From Nitrospirota bacterium (GTDB taxonomy: Bacteria; Nitrospirota; Nitrospiria; JACQBW01): a stretch of 64,000 nucleotides of DNA. The stretch covers positions 1 to 64,000 of the forward strand of contig JACQBW010000035.1 in assembly GCA_016194305.1 (NCBI GenBank), written 5' to 3'. Position numbers and translations under genes: made by a program. Below, one piece after another: positions 4,874 to 63,662 of this stretch (the stretch's first letter is position 1; every line of letters begins with the position of its first letter). Under the pieces are notes generated by a model. It was not told where the DNA came from, ran no database searches, and saw only the letters and a program-made list of their open reading frames with translations.

Positions 4874-6256
4874 ATGGACAAGGTGATGAGAGGAATGTTG
4901 ACTGTGGGAGAGCTCGCCAAAATGGTGAAGAAAGGGGAGATTGAAACCGTCATTCTTTCCTTTACCGACCACTACGGCAGGCTGATGGGGAAACGTCTTG
5001 ATGCGGAATTCTTTCTGGAAGTTGGAGTGAAGCAGGGTACTCACGCTTGCGATTATCTTTTGACTGTGGATATGGAAAACGAACCGGTTCGTGGCTATCG
5101 CTTTGCGAATTGGGAAAAAGGTTACGGAGATTTTCACATGGTCCCGGACCTTGCCACCTTAAGAATGGCAAGCTGGCTGGACAAGAGTGCGATCGTCATC
5201 TGCGATCTGGAAGATGAAAAGAGGGGGGGTGCTGTTCAACAGGCCCCCCGTACAATATTGAAGAAACAGGTTCAAAGGGCTTCAAAGCTGGGCTATACTG
5301 TCATGGCCGCATCGGAGTTGGAATATTACCTGTTCCGGACTTCCTATAAAGAGGCCTGGGAAAAACAGTATCAAAATCTTGAGTCCGTGGGATGGTATCT
5401 GGAAGACTATCATATTCTGCAAGGGACCCGCGAAGAGGAATTCCATAGCGCGGTACGCAAACATCTGAAGCAGTCCGGAATTCCGGTCGAAAACTCGAAA
5501 GGGGAATGGGGGCTGGGACAGCACGAGTTAAACGTCCGTTATGACAAGATCCTGGAAATGGCAGACCGTCATGTGATTTATAAAGAGTGCTTGAAAGAAG
5601 TTGCGGAGAAAATGGGAATCAGCGTGACATTCATGGCAAAATTTTCGTCCGTGCAGGCCGGATCAAGTTCCCATATTCATTTAAGCCTTCGAAAAAACGG
5701 TAAGAATGTATTTCCAGGAAAAAAACGATTGGGCCCTCTTCAATGTTCCGATGTTTTTCGCTGGTTTCTCGGGGGATGGATCGCCCACGTCCCTGATTTT
5801 ATGGTTTTTTATGCGCCGACCATTAATTCCTATAAGCGGTATCAGAGCGGCTCATGGGCTCCAACCCGGCTGGCCTGGAGCTACGACAACAGGACAGGTG
5901 GCTTCCGTGTTGTGGGCAAAGACGAGAGTCTCAGAATCGAGTGCCGGATTCCGGGAGCCGACTGCAATCCCTACCTTGCCTTTGCGGCGGCCCTTGCTTC
6001 AGGTCTAGATGGAATCGAAAAAAAAATGGAGCCGCCTCCGGTTTTTGAGGGGGATATCTATTCTGCCGAAGATCTACCCCGGGTTCCTTCCACGCTTCGC
6101 GAAGCGACAGAGATTTTCGGTCAAAGTGACGTGGTTAAACAAACGTTTGGGGACGAGGTGGCAGAACATTATCTCCATTTTTACCGTTCGGAACAGGAAG
6201 CGTTTGACAGGGCGGTGACGGATTGGGAAAGAATCAGATATTTCGAACGAATTTAA
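4874..6256 (+). CDS. glutamine synthetase family protein (probable gamma-glutamyl-amine ligase)
   Basis: A 460-residue member of the type I glutamine synthetase fold. The N-terminal beta-grasp part contains TDHYGRLMGKR. The catalytic domain contains ASELEYYLF (metal-binding glutamates), GQHELNVRY, MAKFSSVQAGSSSHIHLSL (nucleotide and glutamate loop), INSYKRYQSGSWAPTRLAWSYDNRT and RIECRIPGADCNPYLAFAAAL. It lacks the long C terminus with the adenylylation Tyr loop of canonical GlnA. It resembles the PuuA/gamma-glutamylputrescine synthetase or glutamate-amine ligase branch. An SDR dehydrogenase and an aldehyde dehydrogenase follow on the same strand, which fits a pathway where an amine is glutamylated and then oxidised. 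The ATG follows an AGGAGA ribosome-binding site. The true substrate is not visible from sequence; ordinary glutamine synthesis is less likely but not excluded. Confidence 0.78.
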   Translation: MDKVMRGMLTVGELAKMVKKGEIETVILSFTDHYGRLMGKRLDAEFFLEVGVKQGTHACDYLLTVDMENEPVRGYRFANWEKGYGDFHMVPDLATLRMASWLDKSAIVICDLEDEKRGGAVQQAPRTILKKQVQRASKLGYTVMAASELEYYLFRTSYKEAWEKQYQNLESVGWYLEDYHILQGTREEEFHSAVRKHLKQSGIPVENSKGEWGLGQHELNVRYDKILEMADRHVIYKECLKEVAEKMGISVTFMAKFSSVQAGSSSHIHLSLRKNGKNVFPGKKRLGPLQCSDVFRWFLGGWIAHVPDFMVFYAPTINSYKRYQSGSWAPTRLAWSYDNRTGGFRVVGKDESLRIECRIPGADCNPYLAFAAALASGLDGIEKKMEPPPVFEGDIYSAEDLPRVPSTLREATEIFGQSDVVKQTFGDEVAEHYLHFYRSEQEAFDRAVTDWERIRYFERI

Positions 6257-6383
6257 GGGCATGGAGTGATTGAATCAGCCAAATCCATGAACGGGATCTC
6301 CGGAACGCCGTTCCTGGAATTGGCAGACGATATGATTTTACAGGTCGTAATTTGAAATAGATCATCGGGAGGTTGAATTCAAT

Positions 6384-7157
6384 ATGAGATTGAAAGATAA
6401 AGTAGCTCTCATCACAGGAGGTGGAAGCGGGATCGGACGGGAGACAGCGCTTCTTTTTTCTGCCGAAGGGGCATCGGTTGTGGTGGTGGATAAAGATGCG
6501 CCCGGAGGAAATCAAACGGTGGCGTTGATTAAGTCTTCAGGAGGGAAAGCGATATTTGTTCAGGCGGATGTGTCCAAAAAGGCGGAGGCCGAAGAAATGG
6601 TTGCGAAGGCCGAAAAGGCGTATCAACATCTGAATATCCTGTTTAATAACGCGGGAATCATGCATGGAAACGACGACGACGCGATCAAGACCGAGGAAGA
6701 GGTTTGGGACCTGACGATGAACATTAATCTAAAAGGGGTGTTTCTCGGATGCAAATTTGGAATTCCGGCCCTTCGAAGATCCGGGGGCGGATCGATTATC
6801 AATACCGCTTCATTTGTGGCTCATTTGGGAGCGGCGACACCTCAGGTGGCCTATACGGCAAGCAAGGGAGGAGTCCTCTCTTTTACGCGAGAACTCGCGG
6901 TGATCCACGCACGAGAAAATATCCGGGTGAACGCGCTCTGTCCCGGTCCGCTGAGGACAGAGCTCTTGATGAAATTCCTCGATACGGAAGAGAAGAAGCA
7001 GAGACGCCTGGTCCACATTCCGATGGGCCGATTTGGGGAAGCAAGGGAAATTGCAAAAGCAGCCCTTTTTCTGGCATCGGACGAGTCGTCCTATATGACG
7101 GGAACGTCGTTCATGGTGGATGGCGGGATCACGGCCGCCTATGTCACACCTCAGTGA
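6384..7157 (+). CDS. short-chain dehydrogenase/reductase (SDR)
   Basis: A 257-residue classical SDR oxidoreductase. It has the Rossmann motif TGGGSGIG (residues 11-18), the NNAG motif, a catalytic Ser in SIINTASF, the YxxxK active site in YTASKGG, and the family's PGPLRTEL and FLASDESSYMTGTSFMVDGG C-terminal elements. The acidic residue after beta-strand 2 (VVVDKD) favours NAD over NADP. GGAGG stands ten bases before the ATG. It sits between a glutamine-synthetase-like ligase and an aldehyde dehydrogenase, so it probably oxidises an alcohol intermediate or reduces a carbonyl in the same pathway. The specific substrate cannot be read from the sequence. Confidence 0.85.
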   Translation: MRLKDKVALITGGGSGIGRETALLFSAEGASVVVVDKDAPGGNQTVALIKSSGGKAIFVQADVSKKAEAEEMVAKAEKAYQHLNILFNNAGIMHGNDDDAIKTEEEVWDLTMNINLKGVFLGCKFGIPALRRSGGGSIINTASFVAHLGAATPQVAYTASKGGVLSFTRELAVIHARENIRVNALCPGPLRTELLMKFLDTEEKKQRRLVHIPMGRFGEAREIAKAALFLASDESSYMTGTSFMVDGGITAAYVTPQ

Positions 7158-7193
7158 ATTTGAACCAGGTATAAGGCCAATTTGGAGAGTCGA

Positions 7194-8576
7194 ATGAAAT
7201 CATCCGTACTAAAAGTCATTAACCCTTTCGATCAGAAAATCGTCTGCGAACTTCCCTGGGAAGAGGAGACGACACTCAATAAAAAAATAGGAGAAGCCCA
7301 CCAGGCCTGGGGTCAATGGCGGCACCTCTCTCTGGATGAGCGGACAAAGCAGGTCAAAATCGGGCTGGAACGATTTCGTTCCCGGTCAGAGGCCATTGCC
7401 AGGGAGATTACCCTTCAGATGGGGAAACCGATCGCACAGTCCAAAAGAGAAATGGAAACGTTTTTTGACCGGGCGGACTATATGATTTCTATCGCAGGGA
7501 AGTCGCTCTCACCGATTGTCCTTCCCGAAAAGAAAGGATTCCATCGCCGCATCGAACATCTTCCTCTGGGGGTCGTTTTTAATATCGCCGCCTGGAATTA
7601 TCCATTGTTAATACCTGTCAATGTAATCGTTCCGGCGCTTCTCGCGGGTAATACCGTTGTCCTGAAACATAGCGCGAGGACGCCGCTATGCGGGAAAGCC
7701 TTCGAAACGGCGTTCGGAGAACTTGAAATACCCGGTCTGGTGACGAATCTGGTGTTGACACACCAGCAGACCCTGAGTGTTATCGAAGATTCGAGGATAC
7801 ATTACGTCGCTTTTACCGGATCGGTGCCGGGTGGAAGTCAAATTTACCGGCATTCGGCCAAACGATTTATCGACGTTGGTTTGGAACTGGGAGGGAAAGA
7901 CCCGGCCTATGTCGCTGAAGACACCGATCTCGACTTTGCAGTTGAAAATATCATCGATGGTGCCTGTTATAACGCGGGACAATCTTGTTGCGCAGTCGAG
8001 CGGGTATATGTCCATCATACACTTTACGAACCTTTTCTCATTAAGGCAAAAAAAGTCCTGGAGGCTTATCAGCTGGGTAACCCGTTGGAACCGGGAACGA
8101 CGATGGGCCCACTGGTCAGCCGATCCGCGCTTGAACTGCTGGAAAATCAGGTCAGGGACGGAATCACCCGGGGAGGAAGATTAATTATGGGAGGGAAGCG
8201 CCTTCCGGATTCGGAGGGAAATTTCTTTTTACCCACTCTGATTGCAGATCTGCCTAATCGTGCTGAATTGATGCAGGAAGAGAGTTTTGGTCCTATTGTC
8301 CCGGTCATGTCCGTTGCGGATGACGAGGAAGCATTGAAGTGCATGTCGGACTCAAGATACGGATTGACGGCGTCTGTCTGGACCAGGGACCGTGAAAGGG
8401 CGGAATATTTTGCCCAAAATCTGGAAACAGGCACCCTATACCAGAACCGCTGCGATTACCTCGACCCGGCTCTCCCCTGGACCGGAATGAAAGACAGCGG
8501 AATTGCCGCTACCCTCTCCGAATTTGGTTTCTATCACCTCACGAAACGAAAAAGCATTCACTTTAGGGAAAGGTAG
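7194..8576 (+). CDS. NAD(P)-dependent aldehyde dehydrogenase
   Basis: A 460-residue aldehyde dehydrogenase of the superfamily that oxidises aldehydes to carboxylates. The expected features are present: the AWNYPLLIPVN cofactor entry, AFTGSVPGG, the general base E231 in LELGGKDP, the nucleophile C265 in NAGQSCC, and the EESFGPIVPVM block. The ATG at 7194 is used because TTGGAGAG immediately upstream is a good ribosome-binding site; starting at that TTG would bury the site inside the gene. It follows the SDR by 36 bp and probably completes the ligase-SDR-aldehyde dehydrogenase cassette, oxidising a (glutamyl-)amino-aldehyde or related aldehyde. The substrate remains inferred. Confidence 0.88.
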   Translation: MKSSVLKVINPFDQKIVCELPWEEETTLNKKIGEAHQAWGQWRHLSLDERTKQVKIGLERFRSRSEAIAREITLQMGKPIAQSKREMETFFDRADYMISIAGKSLSPIVLPEKKGFHRRIEHLPLGVVFNIAAWNYPLLIPVNVIVPALLAGNTVVLKHSARTPLCGKAFETAFGELEIPGLVTNLVLTHQQTLSVIEDSRIHYVAFTGSVPGGSQIYRHSAKRFIDVGLELGGKDPAYVAEDTDLDFAVENIIDGACYNAGQSCCAVERVYVHHTLYEPFLIKAKKVLEAYQLGNPLEPGTTMGPLVSRSALELLENQVRDGITRGGRLIMGGKRLPDSEGNFFLPTLIADLPNRAELMQEESFGPIVPVMSVADDEEALKCMSDSRYGLTASVWTRDRERAEYFAQNLETGTLYQNRCDYLDPALPWTGMKDSGIAATLSEFGFYHLTKRKSIHFRER

Positions 8577-52630: not shown

Positions 52631-52715
52631 TTAAGCCTAGGAAAGAAATTATGAGGTCATTAGTTTTAGCGTCGTGAGGTTTAAATTCTTGAAATTGAAA
52701 CAAGGAGAAACGGAT

Positions 52716-53966
52716 ATGCGGAATAGATTGAAAAACATTTTCCTGGCCCTGTTAGGGATATTATCGATTTTTATCGTTTATAATATACCTGTTGCGCAAG
52801 CGATTGTGCAATGCCCTGCCAATGATCCTTTGGCGGTCTGTATTCGGTTGGGTGCGACCGATGGTTATACCAAAGGGGCCGATGGGGAAGATCTCTATAT
52901 TTTCGGTTTTGTCGATCTGACCGGCGTTCCCGAAAATGAAATCGTGAATTATAAGGGCCAGGCCCATCTTCCAGGTCCGATGATTGAAGTTTGGGAAGGC
53001 CAACATCTCTATATTACAGAGACAAACCTTGGCTTCAGTAACCGAATCGATCTGTTTGATCCGCATACGCTTCATTTTCACGGTTTCCCTCATGCGATGG
53101 CGATTTTCGACGGGGTTCCGGATAATTCGATTGCCGTGAACGACGGGCAGGATTTTACCTATTTTTATCAACTCAACGACCCGGGGACCTATCCCTATCA
53201 TTGTCATCAGGAACCGGTTGAGCATATCCAGATGGGCATGGTCGCGTTGATCAATGTTCATCCGTTACAGGACGTTAGCCTCTACCCGGATCAGACGACC
53301 GCACTCGCCGCGCTCAAAGCAAAAGCAGGAATTGGCGACTTCAAATTCGCATCAAACGGATATGCCTATAACGACGGCGGAACGACTCCCGGTACCTCCA
53401 CGACCTATTTTGATCGAGCCTTTAACTTCCTCATCGATGATATCGATGCCCGGAAACACCACAATGATGAAACAATTCAGGAAAGCAAGAATGAATGGCA
53501 CGACTACCATCCCAATCAATATATTTTAAACGGCAGGGTCTATCCGGACACACTCCTCGCTCCGAATGATTCTACGATGACAAGCGGCCACGATTATATC
53601 GGAAGTACCTCCGCGCTTGTCACGGCAAATCAGGGAGAAAAAGTTCTTCTGCGGATGGTCAATCTTGGTTATAAAACCCATACCTTGACGATTCCCGGAA
53701 TCACAATGCGTGTTATCGGTGAAGACGCGAAAATTCTTCGGGGTCCGACCGGCCTTGATCTTTCCTATTCAAGAACCGGGATCGAACTTGCCGGAGGCAA
53801 AACAGCTGATATACTTCTGGATACGGCTGGGGTTGCAAAGGGGACCTATTTCATGTACGCGAGAGAACTTAACCAGGAAGGCTATTTAAGTCTGACCGAT
53901 ATTTTGACGAACGCCCCGCAGAGTGAAAACAACGGCGGGATGATGACTCAGATTATCATTAATTAA
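52716..53966 (+). CDS. two-domain multicopper oxidase-like protein A (domain 1 copper ligands only)
   Basis: A 416-residue exported protein (signal peptide about 1-29, ending AQA) with two cupredoxin domains. Domain 1 has the full set HTLHFHG (H117, H120, H122) and YHCHQEPVEHIQMGM (H162, C163, H164, H170, M175). That gives type 1 copper ligands H117, C163, H170 and M175, plus four trinuclear-site His. In domain 2 the matching motifs are THTLTIPG and YFMYARELNQ, with the trinuclear His gone. Alone it cannot form a trinuclear cluster in the usual interdomain way. The ATG at 52716 has AAGGAGA upstream and begins a signal peptide; a GTG at 52674 is not used. It is first of a three-gene operon behind a sigma-54 promoter. 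It could also be read as an atypical type C two-domain oxidase or a nitrite-reductase relative. Confidence 0.8.
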   Translation: MRNRLKNIFLALLGILSIFIVYNIPVAQAIVQCPANDPLAVCIRLGATDGYTKGADGEDLYIFGFVDLTGVPENEIVNYKGQAHLPGPMIEVWEGQHLYITETNLGFSNRIDLFDPHTLHFHGFPHAMAIFDGVPDNSIAVNDGQDFTYFYQLNDPGTYPYHCHQEPVEHIQMGMVALINVHPLQDVSLYPDQTTALAALKAKAGIGDFKFASNGYAYNDGGTTPGTSTTYFDRAFNFLIDDIDARKHHNDETIQESKNEWHDYHPNQYILNGRVYPDTLLAPNDSTMTSGHDYIGSTSALVTANQGEKVLLRMVNLGYKTHTLTIPGITMRVIGEDAKILRGPTGLDLSYSRTGIELAGGKTADILLDTAGVAKGTYFMYARELNQEGYLSLTDILTNAPQSENNGGMMTQIIIN

Positions 53967-53987
53967 ATTAAGGTGATGGAGAGACCC

Positions 53988-55307
53988 ATGGATTTTTCGA
54001 AGACAAAAAGAATCGTACTTGCCGCTTTCTTAACCTGCTTGATCGTAGGGGGGGCGCAGTCCCTTTCGATGGCTCAGGACATTCATCTCAAGGCTAAAAA
54101 GGGGTTCATTACCGAGCCGGATGGAAACGGGGTTCCCATGTGGGGATTTACCCAGGATGGGAATTTTCGCTACCCGGGTCCGACCATCGAGGTCAACCAA
54201 AATGAAGTCGTCAATGTCTATCTGCAGAACATTGATGTTCCTGAACCTGTTTCGATTGTCTTTTTTGGACAGGAAGGCGTTTCCAATCAGGATCCTGTCT
54301 ATGTGACCAACGACGGTTTAACCACAACGTTACCTGGCGATAAGCGGACGTTAAGGTCGATGGCGGCGGAAGCGCTCCCGGGTGGAGCTGAAATCCTCTA
54401 TACTTTTACGGCAAGCAAAGCGGGTACCTACTACTATCAGAGCGGGACTCATGCGGACGAACAGATTGATATGGGCCTTTTCGGCGGAATCATTGTCCGA
54501 CCCACAGGGTACAATGCCGCCACGAACAAGATTGCCTATGCCAATTGTTCAAATTGCGGATACGACCGGGAATTTCTCTTTCTTTTGAGTGCCGTCGATT
54601 CCATCCAGCATAACCGGGTTGAAGCAGGCCTTCCATACGAGAGCACCTCTTATATGCCCTCATATTGGTTTATCAACGGGCGTTCATTTCCCGATACACT
54701 TGAAGAGACCTATCCGGAATCAGCCCAATTTCAAAGTCAACCGATGAATGCGCTGGTAAAAAGCTATCCCGGAGAAAAACTATTGTTCAGAACAATTACG
54801 CTGGATCGTGACATTCACCCCTTTCATCATCACGGCGTCCATGCGCTGGTTCTGGCAAAGAACGGCAAACTCCTGCAGAGCGCTTCTTCGGCACCCTTGG
54901 CCGACCTCGCGGTCCTTCAATTTTCACAATCTGTTCCGGTCGGTGAAACCGCCGATTCGATCTGGTCCTGGGATGCCAATGATCCGAGTGCCCCTCAAAT
55001 GGGTGGAAGTCATGAAACGATGCTGGGATATGATATCTATGGTAACGATCAAAATAACCTCATTCCGGTTGCCATTCCGCAAGACCTTGCTTTAGTGCAT
55101 GGTCCATTTTACAGCGGCAGCCCGTATCTTGGGAAAACCGGTGACCTTCCAGTCGCAGAAACGGCGGTGAGTCTGAACCATGGCGGAGAGCATTATATGA
55201 TTTTTCATAGCCACCATGAAATAGAACTAACCAATTTCGATGAAACTCCGGGTGGGATGATGACCCAGATTATGATCTGCGCTCCCGGTGCTCAAGCTTG
55301 TCAATAA
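53988..55307 (+). CDS. two-domain multicopper oxidase-like protein B (domain 2 copper ligands only)
   Basis: A 439-residue exported paralogue of the preceding protein (signal peptide about 1-29, ending MAQ). In domain 1 the copper motifs are replaced without gaps: EPVSIVFFG where protein A has DPHTLHFHG, and YQSGTHADEQIDMGL where A has YHCHQEPVEHIQMGM. Domain 2 keeps HPFHHHG (H277, H280, H282) and FHSHHE (H407, H409). Ser408 stands where a type 1 Cys would be, so it has a trinuclear half-site but no type 1 copper. A long insertion (about 290-400) separates the two domain 2 motifs. Like A it ends in GGMMTQI. ATG 53988 has GGAGAG upstream; it lies 21 bp after gene A. It probably pairs with protein A. 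Confidence 0.8.
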   Translation: MDFSKTKRIVLAAFLTCLIVGGAQSLSMAQDIHLKAKKGFITEPDGNGVPMWGFTQDGNFRYPGPTIEVNQNEVVNVYLQNIDVPEPVSIVFFGQEGVSNQDPVYVTNDGLTTTLPGDKRTLRSMAAEALPGGAEILYTFTASKAGTYYYQSGTHADEQIDMGLFGGIIVRPTGYNAATNKIAYANCSNCGYDREFLFLLSAVDSIQHNRVEAGLPYESTSYMPSYWFINGRSFPDTLEETYPESAQFQSQPMNALVKSYPGEKLLFRTITLDRDIHPFHHHGVHALVLAKNGKLLQSASSAPLADLAVLQFSQSVPVGETADSIWSWDANDPSAPQMGGSHETMLGYDIYGNDQNNLIPVAIPQDLALVHGPFYSGSPYLGKTGDLPVAETAVSLNHGGEHYMIFHSHHEIELTNFDETPGGMMTQIMICAPGAQACQ

Positions 55308-55349
55308 AAGGATCGGCGCTATAATTAAAAACAGTCTTGGAAATGAAAC

Positions 55350-58300
55350 ATGAAAACGGAATTAGGAATTAACCGAAAAAAAGGGATGGAAACCATGGCT
55401 AAGAGAAGTGGATTGAGACGATCAATGATGTTCTGCGGGCTTCTGTTATTAAGCCTCGTGCTTCTGAATTCTGGGAAAGGATGGGCGGCGGCCTACAATC
55501 TTAAGGCCACGACCGGAACGGCAACCATGCCGGACGGTGCCGTGATCCCGATCTGGGGATATGCGGCTTGTACGGATGAGACCTTTACATCGTGCGGGCC
55601 GGCCACTCTACCTGGACCTCAGTTAGAGGTGACAGATGGATCATTGACGATCAACCTGTCCAATGACCTGCCAGAGCCGGTTTCAATCATGATTCCGGGT
55701 CAAACCATTCAGCCGACTCCGACAGGAAAATCCTTTACGGTTGAAGCGGCATCTGGCGGGGGAACAGCCTCCTATACCTTTAGTAATGTCCGTCCCGGAA
55801 CCCATCTTTACGAAAGCGGATCGAATCATGCGAAACAGGTTCAAATGGGACTTTACGGCGCATTGATTGTCCGCCCGGCGGGATTTTCTTCTTCGAATTT
55901 AATTGATTTCGATTCAAACAGCACTTTCAATCAGGAAAGAGTCCTTCTTCTTAGTGAAATCGACCCGGACTGGCATGCTGCGGTTTCCGGTGGTCAGCAG
56001 TATAATGGAATCTATTTTAATCCCAAATATTGGTTAATGAATGGCAAGGCCTATCCTGAAACCCAGGATCTCATTACCAAAAGCGGCAACAAAATGTTAC
56101 TCCGTTATCTCAATGCCGGTGCTCAGGATCATGTCATCGTCATACAGGGTATTTCTCAGCATGAAGTGGCTAATGACGGATATCCTGTAAATTACCCCCA
56201 GGATACTTACACGGCGTTGGTGAATCCAGGGGAGACCCGGGATCTGATGATCACCCCTTCTGCTATGGGGACGTTCTCATTGTTTGACCGAAGACTCGAT
56301 ATTACCAATAAAGATAAATTTCCGGGTGGAATGATCTCAATGCTCCGGGTCATTGATTCGACCCTGACAGGTCTTCAGATTTTATCGACGGCACCTGGCA
56401 TGGTCACTGTGGAAAATCTCTATTCCTATGATACGGTGGCGATTGACGCCGACCATCTTGATGCAACATTGATTTATACCATTGTGCCGGGACCCAGTAC
56501 AGTCTCTTCTCTGACGCCCGCGACAGTGAGCGTGGACCCGTCGACAGGAAGAATAACCTGGCCGACCATCCTTGCGGATAATTCTGCGACAAACGGATCT
56601 TATCCGATGACGCTTTCGGTTTCAGATAGTTATGGTGGTCCGGTTAGCCAGACCTTTAATGTTTATGTGAACAGTAATCCCGCATTTGGTGGCGCGCTCG
56701 GTAGCGTTTCTATTGCGGCAGGGTCTACCTATTCGGGCAATGCGTCGGCAACAGACGCAGACGCAAGCGATGTGGTCTCCTATGCGCTCTCTTCCACCAT
56801 GGGCATGTCAGGATTGAGCATTAATCCATCGACAGGAGCATTAACGTGGAATACCAGCACCTCTTCAGCCGGGCTTTACAATTTTAATATTGTGGCGACC
56901 GATGGAAAAGGGGGTATCGCTTCTCAGGTCGTCGCCGCAACCATAACCTCCTCATCTCCTCCGGCGGTTGTGCAGAGCGGGATCTGCGACAACAGAACCG
57001 ATTGCCAGAATGTGACTTTATCGGCGGTTGAGTTTGGGAATACAGCCACGTCCCTGACCACTTTTCAATTTGTCATCAATGTCGATAACACGTCTAAAGT
57101 CGATCCCGATACCGGCGCGTGCGATCCTTGTCCTTCAACCCATCTTTGGGAAAGTAATTCTCCTGTCGCCGCAGTGGGAATGGTCACTGCTGCAACTTTT
57201 GGAGTCAGCAATGTGGTTCAGCTTCCTCCGGGAAACTATTTTGTCACAATCCATGCCGGTGAAGGTGATCCGAGCAGCCCTTATTTCAGACAACAGGTTC
57301 GAAATGGTGGAACTTATAAATTGGATGGTACTCGTTTTAATGTCAGCGGATCGCCCGTTCCGGTACAGCTACAACTTCATAAGAATCCTCTCCCATTAGG
57401 TCAGATCACCGTTCAGGTCTTCTGGGACAATCGGGCACTCAACGCCGAATGGGACGTTGCGACGGAAGGGGTTCCTTTCCGGACACTCGACAATTTGGGA
57501 AATCCAATTCCAGATCATTTTAAAGTTCTTGTTCATGACTCTCTTGGTCAGGTGACGACCGATGCTTACGCGAATCCGCTCTGTACCGAATATACAAAGG
57601 ATGCCAACGGCCAATATATCTATGATCCCGCTACCGGCGCCCCGATTGCCATCAACTCAGATCCAAATAACGGGGGGGCGAAAGGGGGAGCGGTCTGTAT
57701 GACCGACGATAACGGATTTCTCCGTATTCCCAATATTGCTCCCGGTCTTTATGGTGTTGTGGCGTTTCCACCGGAAGATTCCGATTGGGTTCAGACCACG
57801 ACCATTGAAGGAACCAAATCGATTGACGCCTGGGTTCGTGAAGCCGACAACGGAATTCTTCCCGAAGGTTTGTCTGCCCAATCTTATGCAATTCTGCAGG
57901 GATTTGTCCGCCCCTGTAAATTCAGCACGGTGATTCCATCGGGTGCCGACCCCTGCCCGACCTCCCATAATCCGGGAACCGGAATAATTCATGGTCAGGT
58001 GAAAGCCGTTGCACCGTCAAGACCTCCTTACCTCTATGCCGATGGCCTTGGTAAACCTGTGGTTCATCCCTGGGTCGCCCTGTCCAATACAGGTGGAAAC
58101 CTCGAACAGGTTGCTTTGATACAGGGGGATGATCAAGGAAACTTCTCAATCGACCATGTTCCGGCAGGTGCGTATAATGTGGTCATCTGGGACGATCCGA
58201 AAGATTTTATTCTGGCGATCTTTGCGGTCACGATCGCAGACGGCCAAAATCTTGAACTTTTTGATCCTTTGATTTCGACTGACGGCAACAGGGGCATAGG

Positions 58301-61300
58301 CCTCTTTGACTGGTGGGGCCGATTTGTCGGAAATGTCTTCTACGACGCGAATGAAAACGGAATTAAAGACGAAGGAGAGAAAGGTCTTGTTGGCGAGTAT
58401 GTGGAACTCCGTAAGCGGGATGGGAGTCTGATTCAGTCGACCACCACCGATGCCAACGGATATTATAACTTTAGAGAACATTTCCCCTGGTATGGCTGGG
58501 ATATAGCCGGAATTGGTTACTCACGCTTTGGAGACACCGGGCTCACTTATTGGGCGGGGCTAGAGCAGGCAAAGATGGGGCAACCGATCACAGAAGGACC
58601 GGTCACCATCAAAGGGCCCCAGCTTGTGATGGGGGTTCTCCCGATTGCCGGTGAAACCAATCAGATCGATTGGGGGAAAAAGCCTTATCCATTGAATGAT
58701 CCCGACACCATCACTCCATTTACAGGTGGAATTTCGGGGGTCGTCTGGTATGCGTCAACCCGCAATGAGAATGATATTGCTTATGCCGCGGCAGACAACT
58801 GGGAAACGGGTATTCCTGATTTATGGTTAAACTTATACGAACGGCTCGTCGATCCCAAAACGGGCAAAACCGTCATGGATCCTGTCACAGGTGCTGCGGT
58901 AAAAGGGAGGCTTCTTGGAAGGGCAATTACCGACCATTTTAATCGGCCCGAACAGATTCCAACCCATTGCCCGATCATCGATTTCACCACGGGCACGCCG
59001 GGGTTTGATGAGAATTGCACCGAAACCTATATTACCTGGGCTCAGGTCAAGCCGGGTGTCTATGATGGCGCCTATCAATTCTTCTTCGACCAGAGTAATC
59101 CGGCCGATCGTGCAAACCTTTTAAATTGCGACGACGTGGGAGTGGACGTCACCGGACTTGATCCAAATAAATGCCGCCCTCTTCGGGCAGGAACTTATCT
59201 GGTTGAACTTGAGGTCCCGAATAATTATTCACCGTTGACTGAGAATGACCGAAACGTGATCGATCAAGGGGATGTTTTCAAACCGACCCCTCTTAGAGCG
59301 CCCCCCTCTTGCGTCGGCCCTCTTTATTCGGTCATTTATCCGGATGATACGAATAGTAATTATGTCAATGGAACGAAGGCAAACCTCTGCACTTTGAAAG
59401 AAGTGACCGTGGATCCCAATGCGAATGCGGCAAACGATTTCCATCTTTTTACCGACGTTCAGATTCCTGGGCATATGGTCGGATTTGTCAACGACAATAA
59501 CAATTTCGCCGCCAAAACAACCTCTCCCTGGTTTGGCGATAAAGAGGGTATTCCCTTTCTTCCGATTTCAATCCGCGATTGGGCGGGAAAAGAGATCGAC
59601 CGGGTTTATACCGATCAGAACGGGATGTTTGACCTGCTGGTCCCTTCGACCGCACGTCCTAATGCGCCGAAACCGACCGGGTATTCTGAAAATGTCGTTC
59701 TGGTGACCGCAAATGATCCGGGTACGGCCCAAAATCCTGACCCTCATTTTAACCCGAATTATGACTCACTTCTGGTTCAGTTTGAAGTGATGCCGGGACG
59801 ACCAGTCTTCCCCGATATGGCGTTGACACCGGTAAACGGACTTCTGGCCCAGATGAAAGTCGACTGCGGACCGGATGCCACAACGCCTCAGGTATCTTAT
59901 GTCGATGACCCGATCAAGCCTAGAGGACAAACGCTGACCGTAACCGGGACAGGTTTTGGATCCACCGCTGGAAGACTGTTAATCGATTCCACTGTGATTA
60001 CGGCCACTAGCTGGAGTCCAACCGTCATTACCTGGACCATTCCAAGCACATTTGCAACGGGTGCTCACCAGTTGACGGTTCAGGGAAGTAATTTGAAAGT
60101 CAGCCCGGCCGGAATAACCGTTCATATCACCGGTACCGGCTATAACCCTCACATTGTTGACGTCAGTCCAGGTGGCACAAGCCTCCATCCGATCCAGGAC
60201 GCAATCGATGCGGCAGGAACCGTTTCCGGAAGCGTGATTCGAATTCACCCCGGCACCTATCGGGAGAACCCGATTGTTTATAAAAATATCTCCCTTCAGG
60301 GTTATGGCACCGCGGGAGTCAATGCGACCATTATCGACGGCGGATATCTGACCATGGGAACCTCTCTGGCGCTTCAGAACGACTGGACCAATAAAATGAC
60401 CGCCGTGATTGCCAGCACCGATGTGACGGTGGTGGATCAACAGCCGATTTCAGAGACGATGAGCACCATTACCGTTTTTGGACGTGACGGATCAACCCGT
60501 CGTATTCGAATTGACGGATTAAAAATTCAAGGTGCGCGTGGCGGAAGCGGTGTCCATGTGAATGCTTACGCCAGCAATACGATTGTCAGCAACAATCTGA
60601 TTCAAAATAATATGGGATCCCTCCTCACTTCTGGCGGGGGAGTCTCTCTCGGATTTCCGAACTTCGGTAGTAACGTCATCAGCAATCCCCGCATCCACCA
60701 TAACAAGATTATCAGTAACGGTGGAACGCAGGACGGGAGCGGTGTTGCGGTCTACGATGGTGTCGGTCCTTACCAGGTCGACCATAATCTGATCTGCGAC
60801 AACGGATCGATGGTCAATGGAGGAGGTATTGCGCACTTCGGGACCAATCCTTCGACGTCTGCCGGATCGATCGACCACAACGACATTCTCTTCAACTGGG
60901 ACAATCTCGCAGGGGCTGGAATTGCGTTGGAAGGTCCGCCCAATGCGAATGTGACCCTGCCGTCTGTCGGAACCGGTCCGGTCTTGATTGATACCAACCG
61001 GATCTACGGGAACTTTGCCACACAGGATGGCGGTGGTATATCCGTTCGATATGTCAATAACAGCAGTATTCGAATTCAGAATAATATGATTACCAATAAC
61101 ATGACCTCAGACGCGGCGGGAGCCTTGTCGGTGCGTGACGCGGCCAATCTCGTGGTGATCAACAACACGATTGCCAATAACAATGCCACGGCATCCACCA
61201 ATATCCTGATCCCCGGCAAGCAGGCGGGTGGTATCACGATCTATCCCAATACCCTGCCGTTCCAGAATAATGTGATCAGGGCCAATTCGCCCACGGTGAG

Positions 61301-62564
61301 CGATATCCATCTTTACAACAATATCATGTGGGGTAATGATGCCTATCAGTGGAATGTGGCGGGGAGAGTGCTGGCAGATGTCGGACCAATCGATCTTGAC
61401 GTCTACGGGGTTCCCGGTGCGACATTAACCCATGTCGAGGACAACCTCTTTACAGCAAGTGCTGTGACCGCAACCATCTCTAATACGAGCAACCAGTTTG
61501 GGGCGAATCCGGCATTTGTTTCGTCCGTTGCGAATGCGGTGACCGGTCAATATGTCCCTGCGCAAGGGGATGTGATCAGTCAGGTGATTGTCCATTACCT
61601 TCCGCTTACGGTCTCAGGGGATTATCATGTTCAGACGACTTCGCCGGCACTTGAATATGGCGGCAGAACGTTTGAAGCGGGAAGAATCTCCGCGCCGACC
61701 ACTGATTTTGACGGTCAGGCCCGTCCGATCGATAACTGCATTGATTCCGGCGCCGACGAGACCCAGGCTGTAACGGTATGCGTCGTACATCCAGATCTTG
61801 TTGTGAGTGCCTTATCAGCGGTGATTGGAATCGTTCAGCCAGGCGGAACATTGCTGGTGACCAATTCCGTGACGAATCAGGGCAATGGAAGTGCGGGGGC
61901 TTCGACACTGGCCTTTCATCTCTCGAAGAACAGCATTTATGGGGATGTGGACGATGTGACTTCTCCGACGACAAGGGCGATTGCCGCTCTGTTAGCCGGA
62001 GCGTCAAATAACGCCTTGGCCACAGCGGTGACCATTCCAGCCAATACACCCCTTGGAACCTATTACCTCTGTGCGATGGCAGATAGTACCCTGGCGGTTG
62101 CCGAATCGGACGAGGGTAACAACTCATTCTGCACAACCTCTACGATAGAGGTGGTCCAGGCCGATCTGATCGTGAGTACGATGGGCACCCTCTCGAAGAC
62201 ATCAATCTCCCGTGCGGGTAGCAGTACTGTCCGGACCTTTACGGTGCAAAATGCCGTCCAGAATGCTGGAAATCTGCTGGCCGGACCAAACGTTCTAGGG
62301 TTCGTCTTGTCGACTAACCCGAACTATACCGGGACCGGAAGCAGTGTTGCCCTCTCGGGAACCCGGACGATTTTCTTGCTTGGCGCAGGGGCCTCGAGTC
62401 CTGGGACCGGAACGACGACCTCCCCGAATCTTACGGTGGGGACGACCACGCCAACCGGTACTTACTATGTCTGCGGAAAGGCGGATATTAACAATAACGT
62501 GAGTGAATCGAATGAAGGCAATAACTGGAAATGCACAGCGTCTACGTTAACGATCACGCCATAA
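55350..62564 (+). CDS. giant multidomain surface or secreted protein with a copper-less double-cupredoxin N terminus
   Basis: A 2404-residue exported protein. Rough domain order: signal peptide to about 47; two cupredoxin domains 48-335 homologous to proteins A and B but without copper ligands (EPVSIMIPG, YESGSNHAKQVQMGL, DHVIVIQG, FSLFDRRLDI); cadherin/He_PIG-like Ig domains 340-550; SdrD/CnaB-like domains, the best at about 989-1060 (NVFYDANENGIKDEGEKGLV) and another around 1374-1435; an IPT/TIG domain 1512-1596; a right-handed beta-helix about 1601-2141; and two CARDB domains 2147-2404 ending in SDEGNNSFC and SNEGNNWKC. No LPxTG, sorting signal or autotransporter barrel is seen. It resembles a surface scaffold or adhesin. 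An ATG at 55395 is a plausible alternative start with a compact signal peptide. A terminator follows. Confidence 0.82.
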   Translation: MKTELGINRKKGMETMAKRSGLRRSMMFCGLLLLSLVLLNSGKGWAAAYNLKATTGTATMPDGAVIPIWGYAACTDETFTSCGPATLPGPQLEVTDGSLTINLSNDLPEPVSIMIPGQTIQPTPTGKSFTVEAASGGGTASYTFSNVRPGTHLYESGSNHAKQVQMGLYGALIVRPAGFSSSNLIDFDSNSTFNQERVLLLSEIDPDWHAAVSGGQQYNGIYFNPKYWLMNGKAYPETQDLITKSGNKMLLRYLNAGAQDHVIVIQGISQHEVANDGYPVNYPQDTYTALVNPGETRDLMITPSAMGTFSLFDRRLDITNKDKFPGGMISMLRVIDSTLTGLQILSTAPGMVTVENLYSYDTVAIDADHLDATLIYTIVPGPSTVSSLTPATVSVDPSTGRITWPTILADNSATNGSYPMTLSVSDSYGGPVSQTFNVYVNSNPAFGGALGSVSIAAGSTYSGNASATDADASDVVSYALSSTMGMSGLSINPSTGALTWNTSTSSAGLYNFNIVATDGKGGIASQVVAATITSSSPPAVVQSGICDNRTDCQNVTLSAVEFGNTATSLTTFQFVINVDNTSKVDPDTGACDPCPSTHLWESNSPVAAVGMVTAATFGVSNVVQLPPGNYFVTIHAGEGDPSSPYFRQQVRNGGTYKLDGTRFNVSGSPVPVQLQLHKNPLPLGQITVQVFWDNRALNAEWDVATEGVPFRTLDNLGNPIPDHFKVLVHDSLGQVTTDAYANPLCTEYTKDANGQYIYDPATGAPIAINSDPNNGGAKGGAVCMTDDNGFLRIPNIAPGLYGVVAFPPEDSDWVQTTTIEGTKSIDAWVREADNGILPEGLSAQSYAILQGFVRPCKFSTVIPSGADPCPTSHNPGTGIIHGQVKAVAPSRPPYLYADGLGKPVVHPWVALSNTGGNLEQVALIQGDDQGNFSIDHVPAGAYNVVIWDDPKDFILAIFAVTIADGQNLELFDPLISTDGNRGIGLFDWWGRFVGNVFYDANENGIKDEGEKGLVGEYVELRKRDGSLIQSTTTDANGYYNFREHFPWYGWDIAGIGYSRFGDTGLTYWAGLEQAKMGQPITEGPVTIKGPQLVMGVLPIAGETNQIDWGKKPYPLNDPDTITPFTGGISGVVWYASTRNENDIAYAAADNWETGIPDLWLNLYERLVDPKTGKTVMDPVTGAAVKGRLLGRAITDHFNRPEQIPTHCPIIDFTTGTPGFDENCTETYITWAQVKPGVYDGAYQFFFDQSNPADRANLLNCDDVGVDVTGLDPNKCRPLRAGTYLVELEVPNNYSPLTENDRNVIDQGDVFKPTPLRAPPSCVGPLYSVIYPDDTNSNYVNGTKANLCTLKEVTVDPNANAANDFHLFTDVQIPGHMVGFVNDNNNFAAKTTSPWFGDKEGIPFLPISIRDWAGKEIDRVYTDQNGMFDLLVPSTARPNAPKPTGYSENVVLVTANDPGTAQNPDPHFNPNYDSLLVQFEVMPGRPVFPDMALTPVNGLLAQMKVDCGPDATTPQVSYVDDPIKPRGQTLTVTGTGFGSTAGRLLIDSTVITATSWSPTVITWTIPSTFATGAHQLTVQGSNLKVSPAGITVHITGTGYNPHIVDVSPGGTSLHPIQDAIDAAGTVSGSVIRIHPGTYRENPIVYKNISLQGYGTAGVNATIIDGGYLTMGTSLALQNDWTNKMTAVIASTDVTVVDQQPISETMSTITVFGRDGSTRRIRIDGLKIQGARGGSGVHVNAYASNTIVSNNLIQNNMGSLLTSGGGVSLGFPNFGSNVISNPRIHHNKIISNGGTQDGSGVAVYDGVGPYQVDHNLICDNGSMVNGGGIAHFGTNPSTSAGSIDHNDILFNWDNLAGAGIALEGPPNANVTLPSVGTGPVLIDTNRIYGNFATQDGGGISVRYVNNSSIRIQNNMITNNMTSDAAGALSVRDAANLVVINNTIANNNATASTNILIPGKQAGGITIYPNTLPFQNNVIRANSPTVSDIHLYNNIMWGNDAYQWNVAGRVLADVGPIDLDVYGVPGATLTHVEDNLFTASAVTATISNTSNQFGANPAFVSSVANAVTGQYVPAQGDVISQVIVHYLPLTVSGDYHVQTTSPALEYGGRTFEAGRISAPTTDFDGQARPIDNCIDSGADETQAVTVCVVHPDLVVSALSAVIGIVQPGGTLLVTNSVTNQGNGSAGASTLAFHLSKNSIYGDVDDVTSPTTRAIAALLAGASNNALATAVTIPANTPLGTYYLCAMADSTLAVAESDEGNNSFCTTSTIEVVQADLIVSTMGTLSKTSISRAGSSTVRTFTVQNAVQNAGNLLAGPNVLGFVLSTNPNYTGTGSSVALSGTRTIFLLGAGASSPGTGTTTSPNLTVGTTTPTGTYYVCGKADINNNVSESNEGNNWKCTASTLTITP

Positions 62565-62636: not shown

Positions 62637-62673
62637 GTTGACAACCTGGAAAGAAAAAGTACACTTAAAGACA

Positions 62674-63192
62674 ATGAAAAGAAATATTTTAGGATTCTTA
62701 CTATACGGTATCTTCGTCATTTCCTGCTCTTCCTTGCAAGCGCCGCATGATTTGGTAGAAGATCAACCTGCCGGTCACATCGGTCATCAGTCTCATTCTG
62801 ACGCCCGCACTCCGGTAAAGCAGGGTGACTTGTCCGTCGTTACGGGCCAGGAAGATTTGATAAAAACTTATGGCATAAAAGTTGAAACGCTTCGGTTGAC
62901 TTCGGCCGGCATGATGCTCGACCTTCGATACCGGGTGGTCAATCCAAAACTGGCGACGGCGGTGACTCAAACCTCTTCGCCGGTTGAAATCAAAGTCATA
63001 GACCAGGCGACCGGCCATGCACTGGGCGTCGACAAAACCAACGCAGGATGGTATCGATCGAGATCAAAGAGAATTCAACCCAACCGGATTTTCTTTGTCA
63101 TTCTCGACAATACGCATCAGGCGGTCAAGCAGGGTTCCGTTGTGGCCATTACTTTTGGTTCGATTAAAGTTCAGGGATGGAGGGTGGAATGA
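62674..63192 (+). CDS. lipoprotein of unknown function
   Basis: A 172-residue lipoprotein. The signal peptide ends in the lipobox VISC (Cys20). A His-rich segment follows (HIGHQSHSDAR), then a beta-rich domain (GIKVETLRLTSAGMMLDLRY, RVVNPKL, EIKVIDQATGHALGV, VAITFGSIKVQGWRVE). The family was not recognised. The ATG at 62674 starts a clean signal peptide; the frame is open upstream to 62638, inside the region after the terminator. It overlaps the next lipoprotein gene by four bases (ATGA). The His-rich stretch next to a copper-enzyme operon may mean metal binding, which is inference. Confidence 0.7.
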   Translation: MKRNILGFLLYGIFVISCSSLQAPHDLVEDQPAGHIGHQSHSDARTPVKQGDLSVVTGQEDLIKTYGIKVETLRLTSAGMMLDLRYRVVNPKLATAVTQTSSPVEIKVIDQATGHALGVDKTNAGWYRSRSKRIQPNRIFFVILDNTHQAVKQGSVVAITFGSIKVQGWRVE

Positions 63193-63662
63193 ACAGATTA
63201 TCTTGCCGGGCACTTTTTGTTTTTTTGACTGTCATTTGTCTTTCCGGATCAGGCTGTGCCGCGCCGTTGCACAATGTTCTATCGAAAGACTTGCAAAACG
63301 AGATCAATTTAAAGCCTTCCGGTCAGAAAATACCGGTCATTCTGATTTTTGACACCGCGAAAACGAGCCCCTATTTGTCGCGCGACGAGATGAACCGGAA
63401 TTTAAAGGAACATGCTCGTGTATCGCAAAAGGAGACGATTGACCTTTTGATTCAAAAAAAGAAAAATGGAGAGGCGGAGTCGGTTCGCTCTTACTGGATT
63501 GACAATTCCATTTCTCTGAAGGCCACGCCCGCCTTGATTCGGGAACTGGCACAAAAAAAAGAGATTGTCAGCATTGTTCGTGATCAACCCGCATCACTCT
63601 CGAAAAAAGAAGTAAAATCTGTTCCCGTTAAAAAAACCCGAGAGGAGAGTCATGAAAAATAA
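63189..63662 (+). CDS. stand-alone I9-propeptide-like lipoprotein
   Basis: A 157-residue lipoprotein (lipobox GSGC at residues 17-20). The domain from KIPVILIFDTAK to EIVSIVRDQPAS has the order of a subtilisin propeptide/inhibitor I9 domain: a beta-strand, a long helix with LIQKKKNGEAESVRSYWIDN, the SISLKATPALIRELAQKK block and a final strand. No protease domain follows; the gene ends soon after in a basic tail. It is coupled to the gene upstream (ATGA) and overlaps the next gene by 11 bases, whose N terminus looks homologous. It could act as an inhibitor or chaperone in trans. Confidence 0.65.
   Translation: MNRLSCRALFVFLTVICLSGSGCAAPLHNVLSKDLQNEINLKPSGQKIPVILIFDTAKTSPYLSRDEMNRNLKEHARVSQKETIDLLIQKKKNGEAESVRSYWIDNSISLKATPALIRELAQKKEIVSIVRDQPASLSKKEVKSVPVKKTREESHEK

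Follow-up and report, generated by a model that had tools for sequence, protein, structure and literature searches.

The window analysed here is a stretch of 64,000 nucleotides from a Nitrospirota bacterium (contig JACQBW010000035.1, positions 1 to 64,000 of the forward strand). Towards its end, a tRNA-Cys gene is followed by three co-directional genes: A (52674-53966), B (53973-55307) and a gene encoding a 2404-residue protein (55350-62564), whose N-terminal module is referred to as C. The features of the region were the following:

52674-53966, + strand: A, secreted two-domain cupredoxin, candidate subunit, with domain 1 alive and domain 2 dead (Pfam Cu-oxidase_3, E 1e-12; ligand table)
53064-53081, + strand: HxxHxH of A domain 1, type-1 His and two cluster His (alignment to 3g5w)
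53199-53240, + strand: HCH(x5)H(x4)M of A domain 1, type-1 Cys, His and Met and two cluster His (alignment to 3g5w; kept in 69/69 readable relatives)
53676-53873, + strand: dead half-site region of A domain 2, THTLTIPG ... MYARELN (alignment to 3g5w)
53973-55307, + strand: B, secreted two-domain cupredoxin, candidate subunit, with domain 1 dead and domain 2 carrying the other half of the cluster (Pfam; ligand table)
54243-54479, + strand: dead site of B domain 1, EPVSIVFFG ... YYQSGTHADEQIDMGL (alignment to 3g5w)
54816-54836, + strand: HPFHHHG of B domain 2, two cluster His and a non-conserved His at the type-1-equivalent position (ligand tables)
55203-55226, + strand: HSH of B domain 2, two cluster His, with Ser in place of Cys and hence no type-1 site (ligand tables)
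55350-62564, + strand: C fused to a scaffold, 2404 residues (list of open reading frames; Pfam)
55488-56357, + strand: C module with two cupredoxin domains, both dead, the predicted third wall in a ring (PDB matches, ligand table, model superposition)
56700-56948, + strand: He_PIG Ig-like domain of the C scaffold (Pfam, E 1e-9)
58335-58478, + strand: SdrD B-like domain of the scaffold (Pfam, E 4e-16), also present in separate scaffold genes
59925-60092, + strand: IPT/TIG domain of the scaffold (Pfam, E 8e-5)
60147-61769, + strand: beta-helix-like stretch with a choice-of-anchor Q match at its end (NCBIfam, E 6e-4 for the end; extent judged by eye)
61791-62561, + strand: two CARDB domains at the scaffold end (Pfam, E 1e-14)
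62638-63192, + strand: conserved lipoprotein-like gene 3′ of C, with relatives in 57/80 loci and no Pfam match

The roles given to the individual histidines of HxxHxH in A are those that we take to apply from two-domain multicopper oxidases (2dMCOs) and NirK. A, B and the C module share one reading frame (52674-56357), which we regard as a coincidence. Adjoining the lipoprotein gene, two small secreted proteins are encoded at 63177-63662 and from 63652 onward; the second matched the subtilase propeptide/inhibitor family I9 (E 2.5e-4) and the first looked similar by eye.

According to the original prediction, the N-terminal part of the 2404-residue protein is a double cupredoxin resembling A and B that has lost every copper ligand. 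The open reading frame is real and the resemblance was confirmed for residues 47-336. The C module showed 32% identity to B over 269 residues (E 1e-34) and 23% identity to A over 342 residues (E 4e-13), and it scored 179.9 bits against the B profile and 62.5 bits against the A profile, compared with maxima of 3.8 and 8.2 bits, respectively, in 500 shuffles. Outside the operon, its best solved relatives were two-domain multicopper oxidases, matched over both domains (3g5w, E 1e-18; 2zwn, E 5e-15). Consistently, the modelled C module superposed on 2zwn with a Z score of 31.3 (267 residues, 1.8 Å) and on 3g5w with a Z score of 31, a value that the modelled B module also reached against two-domain multicopper oxidases. 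When aligned to 3g5w, C retained neither a type-1 nor a cluster set, as anticipated: the ligand positions read V-M-P / E-S-G / Q / L in domain 1 and Q-H-V-Q / F-x-R in domain 2, and the lone remaining histidine, residue 261, does not occupy a cluster ligand position. The domain 1 substitutions said to be common to B and C (EPVSI and SG...QxxMGL) were present in the sequence, and substitutions of the same kind were found in B and C of all 20 Nitrospirota genomes carrying these genes.

These 20 genomes emerged from a search of 395 Nitrospirota genomes with C and with profiles of A and B. C gave 20 close-matching genomes (best E 3e-29 or lower), followed at E 2e-19 by other copper proteins, with 40 genomes in all passing E 1e-12. 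The B profile found 20 genomes at E 1e-40 and the A profile also 20, and the three sets were identical, spanning 16 genera. The proposal that A, B and C are three components belonging together thus stood, and the possibility that the giant gene occurs mostly without A and B was contradicted by the survey. The three genes were consecutive in 19 of the 20 genomes, some of the clusters being interrupted by a contig edge and A of G083 being divided between two contigs. The exception is G075, where about 7 kb separate A-B from C on its upstream side, a point against the heterotrimer proposed below. A GTDB-wide scan seeded with C yielded 227 confirmed relatives, of which the best 80 were analysed; such a scan is blind to A and B occurring without C beyond the phylum, while for Nitrospirota the phylum searches cover that case. 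The order A-B-C on one strand was found in 73 of these best 80 loci, that is, in all 73 with A on the examined stretch. As for the other seven, the contig ended inside the cluster in six, and in G075 A-B fell outside the examined stretch. The 80 loci belonged to ten phyla (Nitrospirota, Pseudomonadota, Myxococcota, Thermodesulfobacteriota, Bacillota, Chloroflexota, Acidobacteriota, Planctomycetota, Bdellovibrionota and Lentisphaerota), and several of the carriers (Moorella, Desulforudis and Desulfoferrobacter) are presumably anaerobes.

The ligand tables revealed that the first domain of A combines a complete type-1 site with one half of a trinuclear cluster and that the second domain of B contains exactly the other half. 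Summed over both domains, this gives a single type-1 site and exactly eight cluster histidines. The motif of A domain 1 (HxxHxH and HCH...H...M, comprising three His, HCH, a further His and the axial Met) was intact in the 19 readable genomes out of 20 examined in the phylum, in all 69 readable A frames (74 examined) from the GTDB loci and in 4/4 Gallionellaceae loci. Similarly, the cluster histidines of B domain 2 were kept in 20/20 phylum genomes and 4/4 Gallionellaceae loci, and its two His pairs in 76/76 and 78/78 readable frames (79 examined) from the GTDB loci. The type-1-equivalent position of this domain drifts (Y, F or T in five Chloroflexota) while the cluster histidines remain constant. 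In contrast, a live ligand set in A domain 2, B domain 1 or either C domain was found in none of the 20 phylum genomes and in none of the 74, 79 and 80 frames of A, B and C, respectively, from the GTDB loci. NirK is marked by a domain 1 HxxDxH and a Gly following HC; two NirK-like sequences, L035 and L036, have HxxDxH and HCG, whereas A has HxxHxH and HCH. According to the available text of a study of 2dMCOs, these enzymes are trimers in which residues from two protomers make up the trinuclear cluster, and in type C enzymes it is the N-terminal domain that holds type-1 copper (PMC13151041). Type-1 ligands were located in the N-terminal domain in A and were absent from B and C. Instead of a homotrimer of one chain, as in type C 2dMCOs, there are here three different chains, none of which carries both halves. 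A divergent two-gene version that follows the same half-site rule was observed in G072 (L073:4959-7305), where one chain has a live domain 1 and the other a live domain 2; a search of this genome for the third chain did not find it.

Trees were built from 17 of the 80 loci, the window and other copper proteins, 10 for full modules and 8 for single domains, the two G072 chains (L073a and L073b) being left out of the single-domain trees as long branches. The A, B and C modules each formed one clade, and Bacillota, Chloroflexota and the Nitrospirota pair split alike in all three. As claimed, the module of the giant protein grouped with B: the two were sisters to the exclusion of A with an SH-aLRT support of 99, and of 97 on domain 1 alone with the ligand columns removed, while the tree of domain 2 alone did not resolve this pair. 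L031, a single-gene, fully liganded oxidase, adjoined the A clade (support 93).

We next consider the scaffold, defined as the homologue of residues 541-2404 of the window protein and called S. It was present in 68 of the best 80 loci, and the other 12 end at contig edges near or inside the cluster. S was mostly a separate gene of 1500-2300 residues located directly before A. It was fused to C in the window, G058, G067, G075, G083 and four Gallionellaceae loci, and apparently in G007, at a contig end; in L128 it was fused to A. The S-C fusion is therefore a lineage variant, the scaffold being a separate gene in most genomes, and the fusion of S to C in some loci and to A in another argues for a joint assembly of S, A and C. 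The SdrD B domain recurs in S proteins encoded by genes of their own, with a Beta_helix match in two of three (L152 and L134). In seven Bacillota loci (L099, L114, L122, L130, L138, L144 and L152), S, A, B and C all lacked a signal-peptide-like leader (hydropathy peaks of at most 1.6). In the other phyla nearly all of these proteins had one, apart from a few low-scoring S frames that may reflect a wrong start codon. This joint change of compartment is further evidence that the four proteins act together. We take the leaderless carriers to be spore formers, and a location in the spore coat would be our guess for this form. Among the best 80 loci, the most constant neighbour after C was the lipoprotein-like gene without a Pfam family (57 loci), and other neighbours were an S8 subtilase (49/80), a cytochrome c with a periplasmic-binding domain (19/80) and SCO1 (15/80). 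In the window, neither SCO1 nor a cytochrome adjoins the cluster, and I9-like, ankyrin and subtilase genes are found instead. Multihaem cytochromes were considered as a general partner and rejected, as they adjoin the cluster in only 3/80 loci (L104, L110 and L114).

Because neither A nor B holds more than half of an active site, C is most simply understood as the third member of a single ring. We propose, with a probability of about 0.6, that A, B and C each contribute one subunit to a heterotrimeric two-domain multicopper oxidase with a type C layout and a single active site. An ancestral homotrimer whose three sites were identical would have been duplicated, after which two of the three inter-subunit sites would have decayed and one would have been left. 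A domain 1 would supply the type-1 copper and four cluster histidines and B domain 2 the other four, the eight probably meeting in space where these domains touch. In a ring of the order A-C-B, with each domain 1 set against domain 2 of the preceding chain, a live domain would face a live one once and a dead domain a dead one twice (B domain 1 with C domain 2, and C domain 1 with A domain 2), and C would close the ring. C may also tie the ring to the long secreted scaffold, by fusion here and through the separate neighbouring gene elsewhere. The oxidase would then be extracellular, acting on a surface or mineral, with electrons entering at the type-1 copper of A and passing to the cluster between A and B. 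An extracellular metal oxidase is our best guess for the function, and solid Fe(II) or Mn(II) for the substrate. Two observations qualify the heterotrimer. The two-chain version of G072 indicates that the third chain can be dispensable, and carriers that are presumably anaerobic are hard to reconcile with an oxidase reducing O2, suggesting that electron acceptors besides O2 are perhaps used or that the enzyme serves to remove O2.

Structure models were used to examine these contacts. AlphaFold was run on the in-frame A-B-C read-through, with stops replaced by Gly and the natural leaders acting as linkers. In-frame stretches from other genomes served as the alignment: 44 were found (3 ABC, 22 AB and 19 BC), of which 41 entered the ABC alignment (3/3, 20/22 and 18/19, respectively), and for A-B alone the alignment comprised 21/22 AB stretches and the 3 ABC stretches trimmed to A-B. 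A fused-chain alignment with single A, B and C rows was dropped because nearly all rows stacked on A. The ABC chain gave a pTM of 0.84 and a pLDDT of 79.8, with about 90 linker residues disordered, and A-B alone gave 0.71 and 74.4, the pTM of an artificial in-frame chain being no measure of affinity. Adding C raised the mean pLDDT of A domain 2 by 9.1 and changed that of A domain 1 by -1.3 (rank test p 7e-5; 24 versus 25 A rows), as would be expected from a contact between C and A domain 2. Foldseek aligned the ABC model to the three-domain laccase 2xu9 with a TM score of 0.68 over 784 columns and to a second entry with 0.66 over 777; two further entries of the same laccase gave shorter alignments (0.46-0.51) and laccases of like size 0.46-0.53. 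The long match exceeds one unit, which suggests that domain 1 of one chain lies on domain 2 of the chain from the next gene, in sequence order. Against ceruloplasmin in gene order, the ABC model gave a TM score of 0.21 and an rmsd of 34, which fits the ring order A-C-B and equally the lack of a proper ring; the direction of the ring is tentatively assigned. The A-B-only model superposed on ceruloplasmin and factor VIII in gene order (TM 0.45-0.51), placing A domain 2 beside B domain 1, the opposite of the contact between A domain 1 and B domain 2. That contact would at best appear in AlphaFold only with C present. VIA structure alignments gave single-unit matches only, nearly all on module C for the ABC model and on module B for the AB model; these lists confirm the fold and not the arrangement, and the absence of ceruloplasmin from them carries no meaning.

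The original prediction took the giant protein for a docking subunit that recruits A and B to a surface scaffold. Of this, the scaffold as a constant partner (68/80 loci) and the three components occurring together held up, but C does not appear to be primarily a recruiter, since A and B each hold a half-site, and most genomes encode the scaffold separately. The corresponding alternative, that A and B form copper oligomers without C and that C is an adaptor bringing them to the scaffold, is the strongest competitor, although we consider it unlikely. Dead paralogues often become adaptors, C is dead and in the window is fused to the scaffold, and G072 offers a two-chain version without a third chain. 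However, C was never missing where A and B were found (20/20 phylum genomes), an adaptor unfused to S, as in most loci, would need to bind both partners, and the addition of C sharpened A domain 2 in the model.

Two further explanations appear improbable to a similar degree. A and B could build a hetero-oligomer (A3B3 or A2B, for example) with several sites between A domain 1 and B domain 2, with C belonging to the scaffold and forming a homotrimer of its own; the half-sites require only A and B, and the variant of G072 fits this arrangement. Yet a three-membered ring of A and B must hold a like-like interface with an unpaired half, and conservation and gene order bind C as tightly as A and B. 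Alternatively, there may be no multicopper enzyme at all, A being a blue-copper electron carrier and B domain 2 binding another metal in an electron conduit or copper store. The occurrence in presumed anaerobes and the nearby SCO1 (15/80) and cytochrome c/periplasmic-binding protein (19/80), which fits electron transfer, speak for this option. A carrier, however, needs one His, Cys, His and Met, while the extra histidines of A (HxH and HCH) and the four of B domain 2, eight cluster histidines in total, are invariant. A copper-free adhesion complex with relic metal motifs would suit the adhesin-like scaffold domains, but it is very improbable, as the motifs show no variation over ten phyla whereas four sister domains of the same complex have lost theirs.

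The one-site heterotrimer can be compared with several known systems. Type C 2dMCOs (3g5w from Nitrosomonas europaea and 2zwn) resemble the modules described here in fold, in the type-1 site in domain 1 and in the distribution of cluster halves over domains 1 and 2; they are encoded by one gene with all sites intact, whereas A, B and C are three genes with one site between them. Judging from the ligand patterns, the complex would work like, and probably descends from, this class rather than being a member of it. Ceruloplasmin, factor V/VIII and MnxG have six cupredoxin domains, only some of which carry copper, as in A, B and C together, and such six-domain oxidases were the best full-length Foldseek matches of the ABC model by E-value. 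They are, however, one polypeptide instead of three genes, and the ABC model departs from ceruloplasmin in gene order. The OmpB/MofA surface oxidases, likened here through the accessible part of their published description only, are extracellular multicopper oxidases with MofC-like and SCO1 neighbours, as in some A-B-C loci.

The same gene set is present in G461, which we take to be Sideroxydans lithotrophicus ES-1, in the order A, B, a 2879-residue C plus scaffold, the lipoprotein, SCO1 and a MofC-like cytochrome, with an identical half-site pattern; where ES-1 has SCO1 and the cytochrome, the window has the I9-like, ankyrin and subtilase genes. The three tandem multicopper oxidase genes of ES-1 were described by He et al. 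2017 (PMC5566968), and the set corresponds to Slit_1812-1818 (Keffer et al. 2025, PMC12016527). As far as the available text of the latter goes, two of the three proteins have multicopper oxidase motifs and the third has none, bearing adhesin and polysaccharide-lyase-like domains, and levels of Slit_1816-1818 on late magnetite exceeded those on Fe(II)-citrate, from which a role in solid Fe(II) oxidation was suggested (PMC12016527). The accessible parts of both papers treat the products as separate cupredoxin proteins and contain no subunit, half-site or ring model (PMC12016527, PMC5566968), and a search of open PMC papers for a heterotrimeric or split two-domain multicopper oxidase, or for the half-site or ring reading, found none. 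Within the scope of this search, what appears new is the reading as a one-site heterotrimer, the gene cluster having already been published for ES-1. This reading recasts the puzzling 'dead' protein of a magnetite-induced cluster as part of a testable enzyme, names the chains to co-express and the residues of the single site, and would explain why views of single proteins count two multicopper oxidases and one other protein. If true, it would display, in separate genes, the loss of sites from a homotrimeric copper oxidase towards a ceruloplasmin-like asymmetric ring. On balance, we lean slightly towards a widespread and so far unrecognised class of extracellular oxidases: an obligate heterotrimer with one site across two chains and a dead third chain mounting the ring on a giant scaffold, which would correspond to a ceruloplasmin divided into separate subunits, act on solid minerals and be leaderless, perhaps in the spore coat, in Bacillota.

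Additional genes were noted during the analysis. In L034, which lies on a contig outside the window, a subtilase with a terminal dockerin domain identified by Pfam (4933-6861) lies beside a small lipoprotein (6858-7403) that looks cohesin-like by eye and has no Pfam match, and the two could be a surface anchoring pair. The genome of the window also encodes two related giant multi-cupredoxin proteins (open frames of 1376 and 1662 residues) and a 1557-residue frame joining repeats to a multicopper oxidase (loci L007, L008 and L002; contigs C7, C5 and C6).
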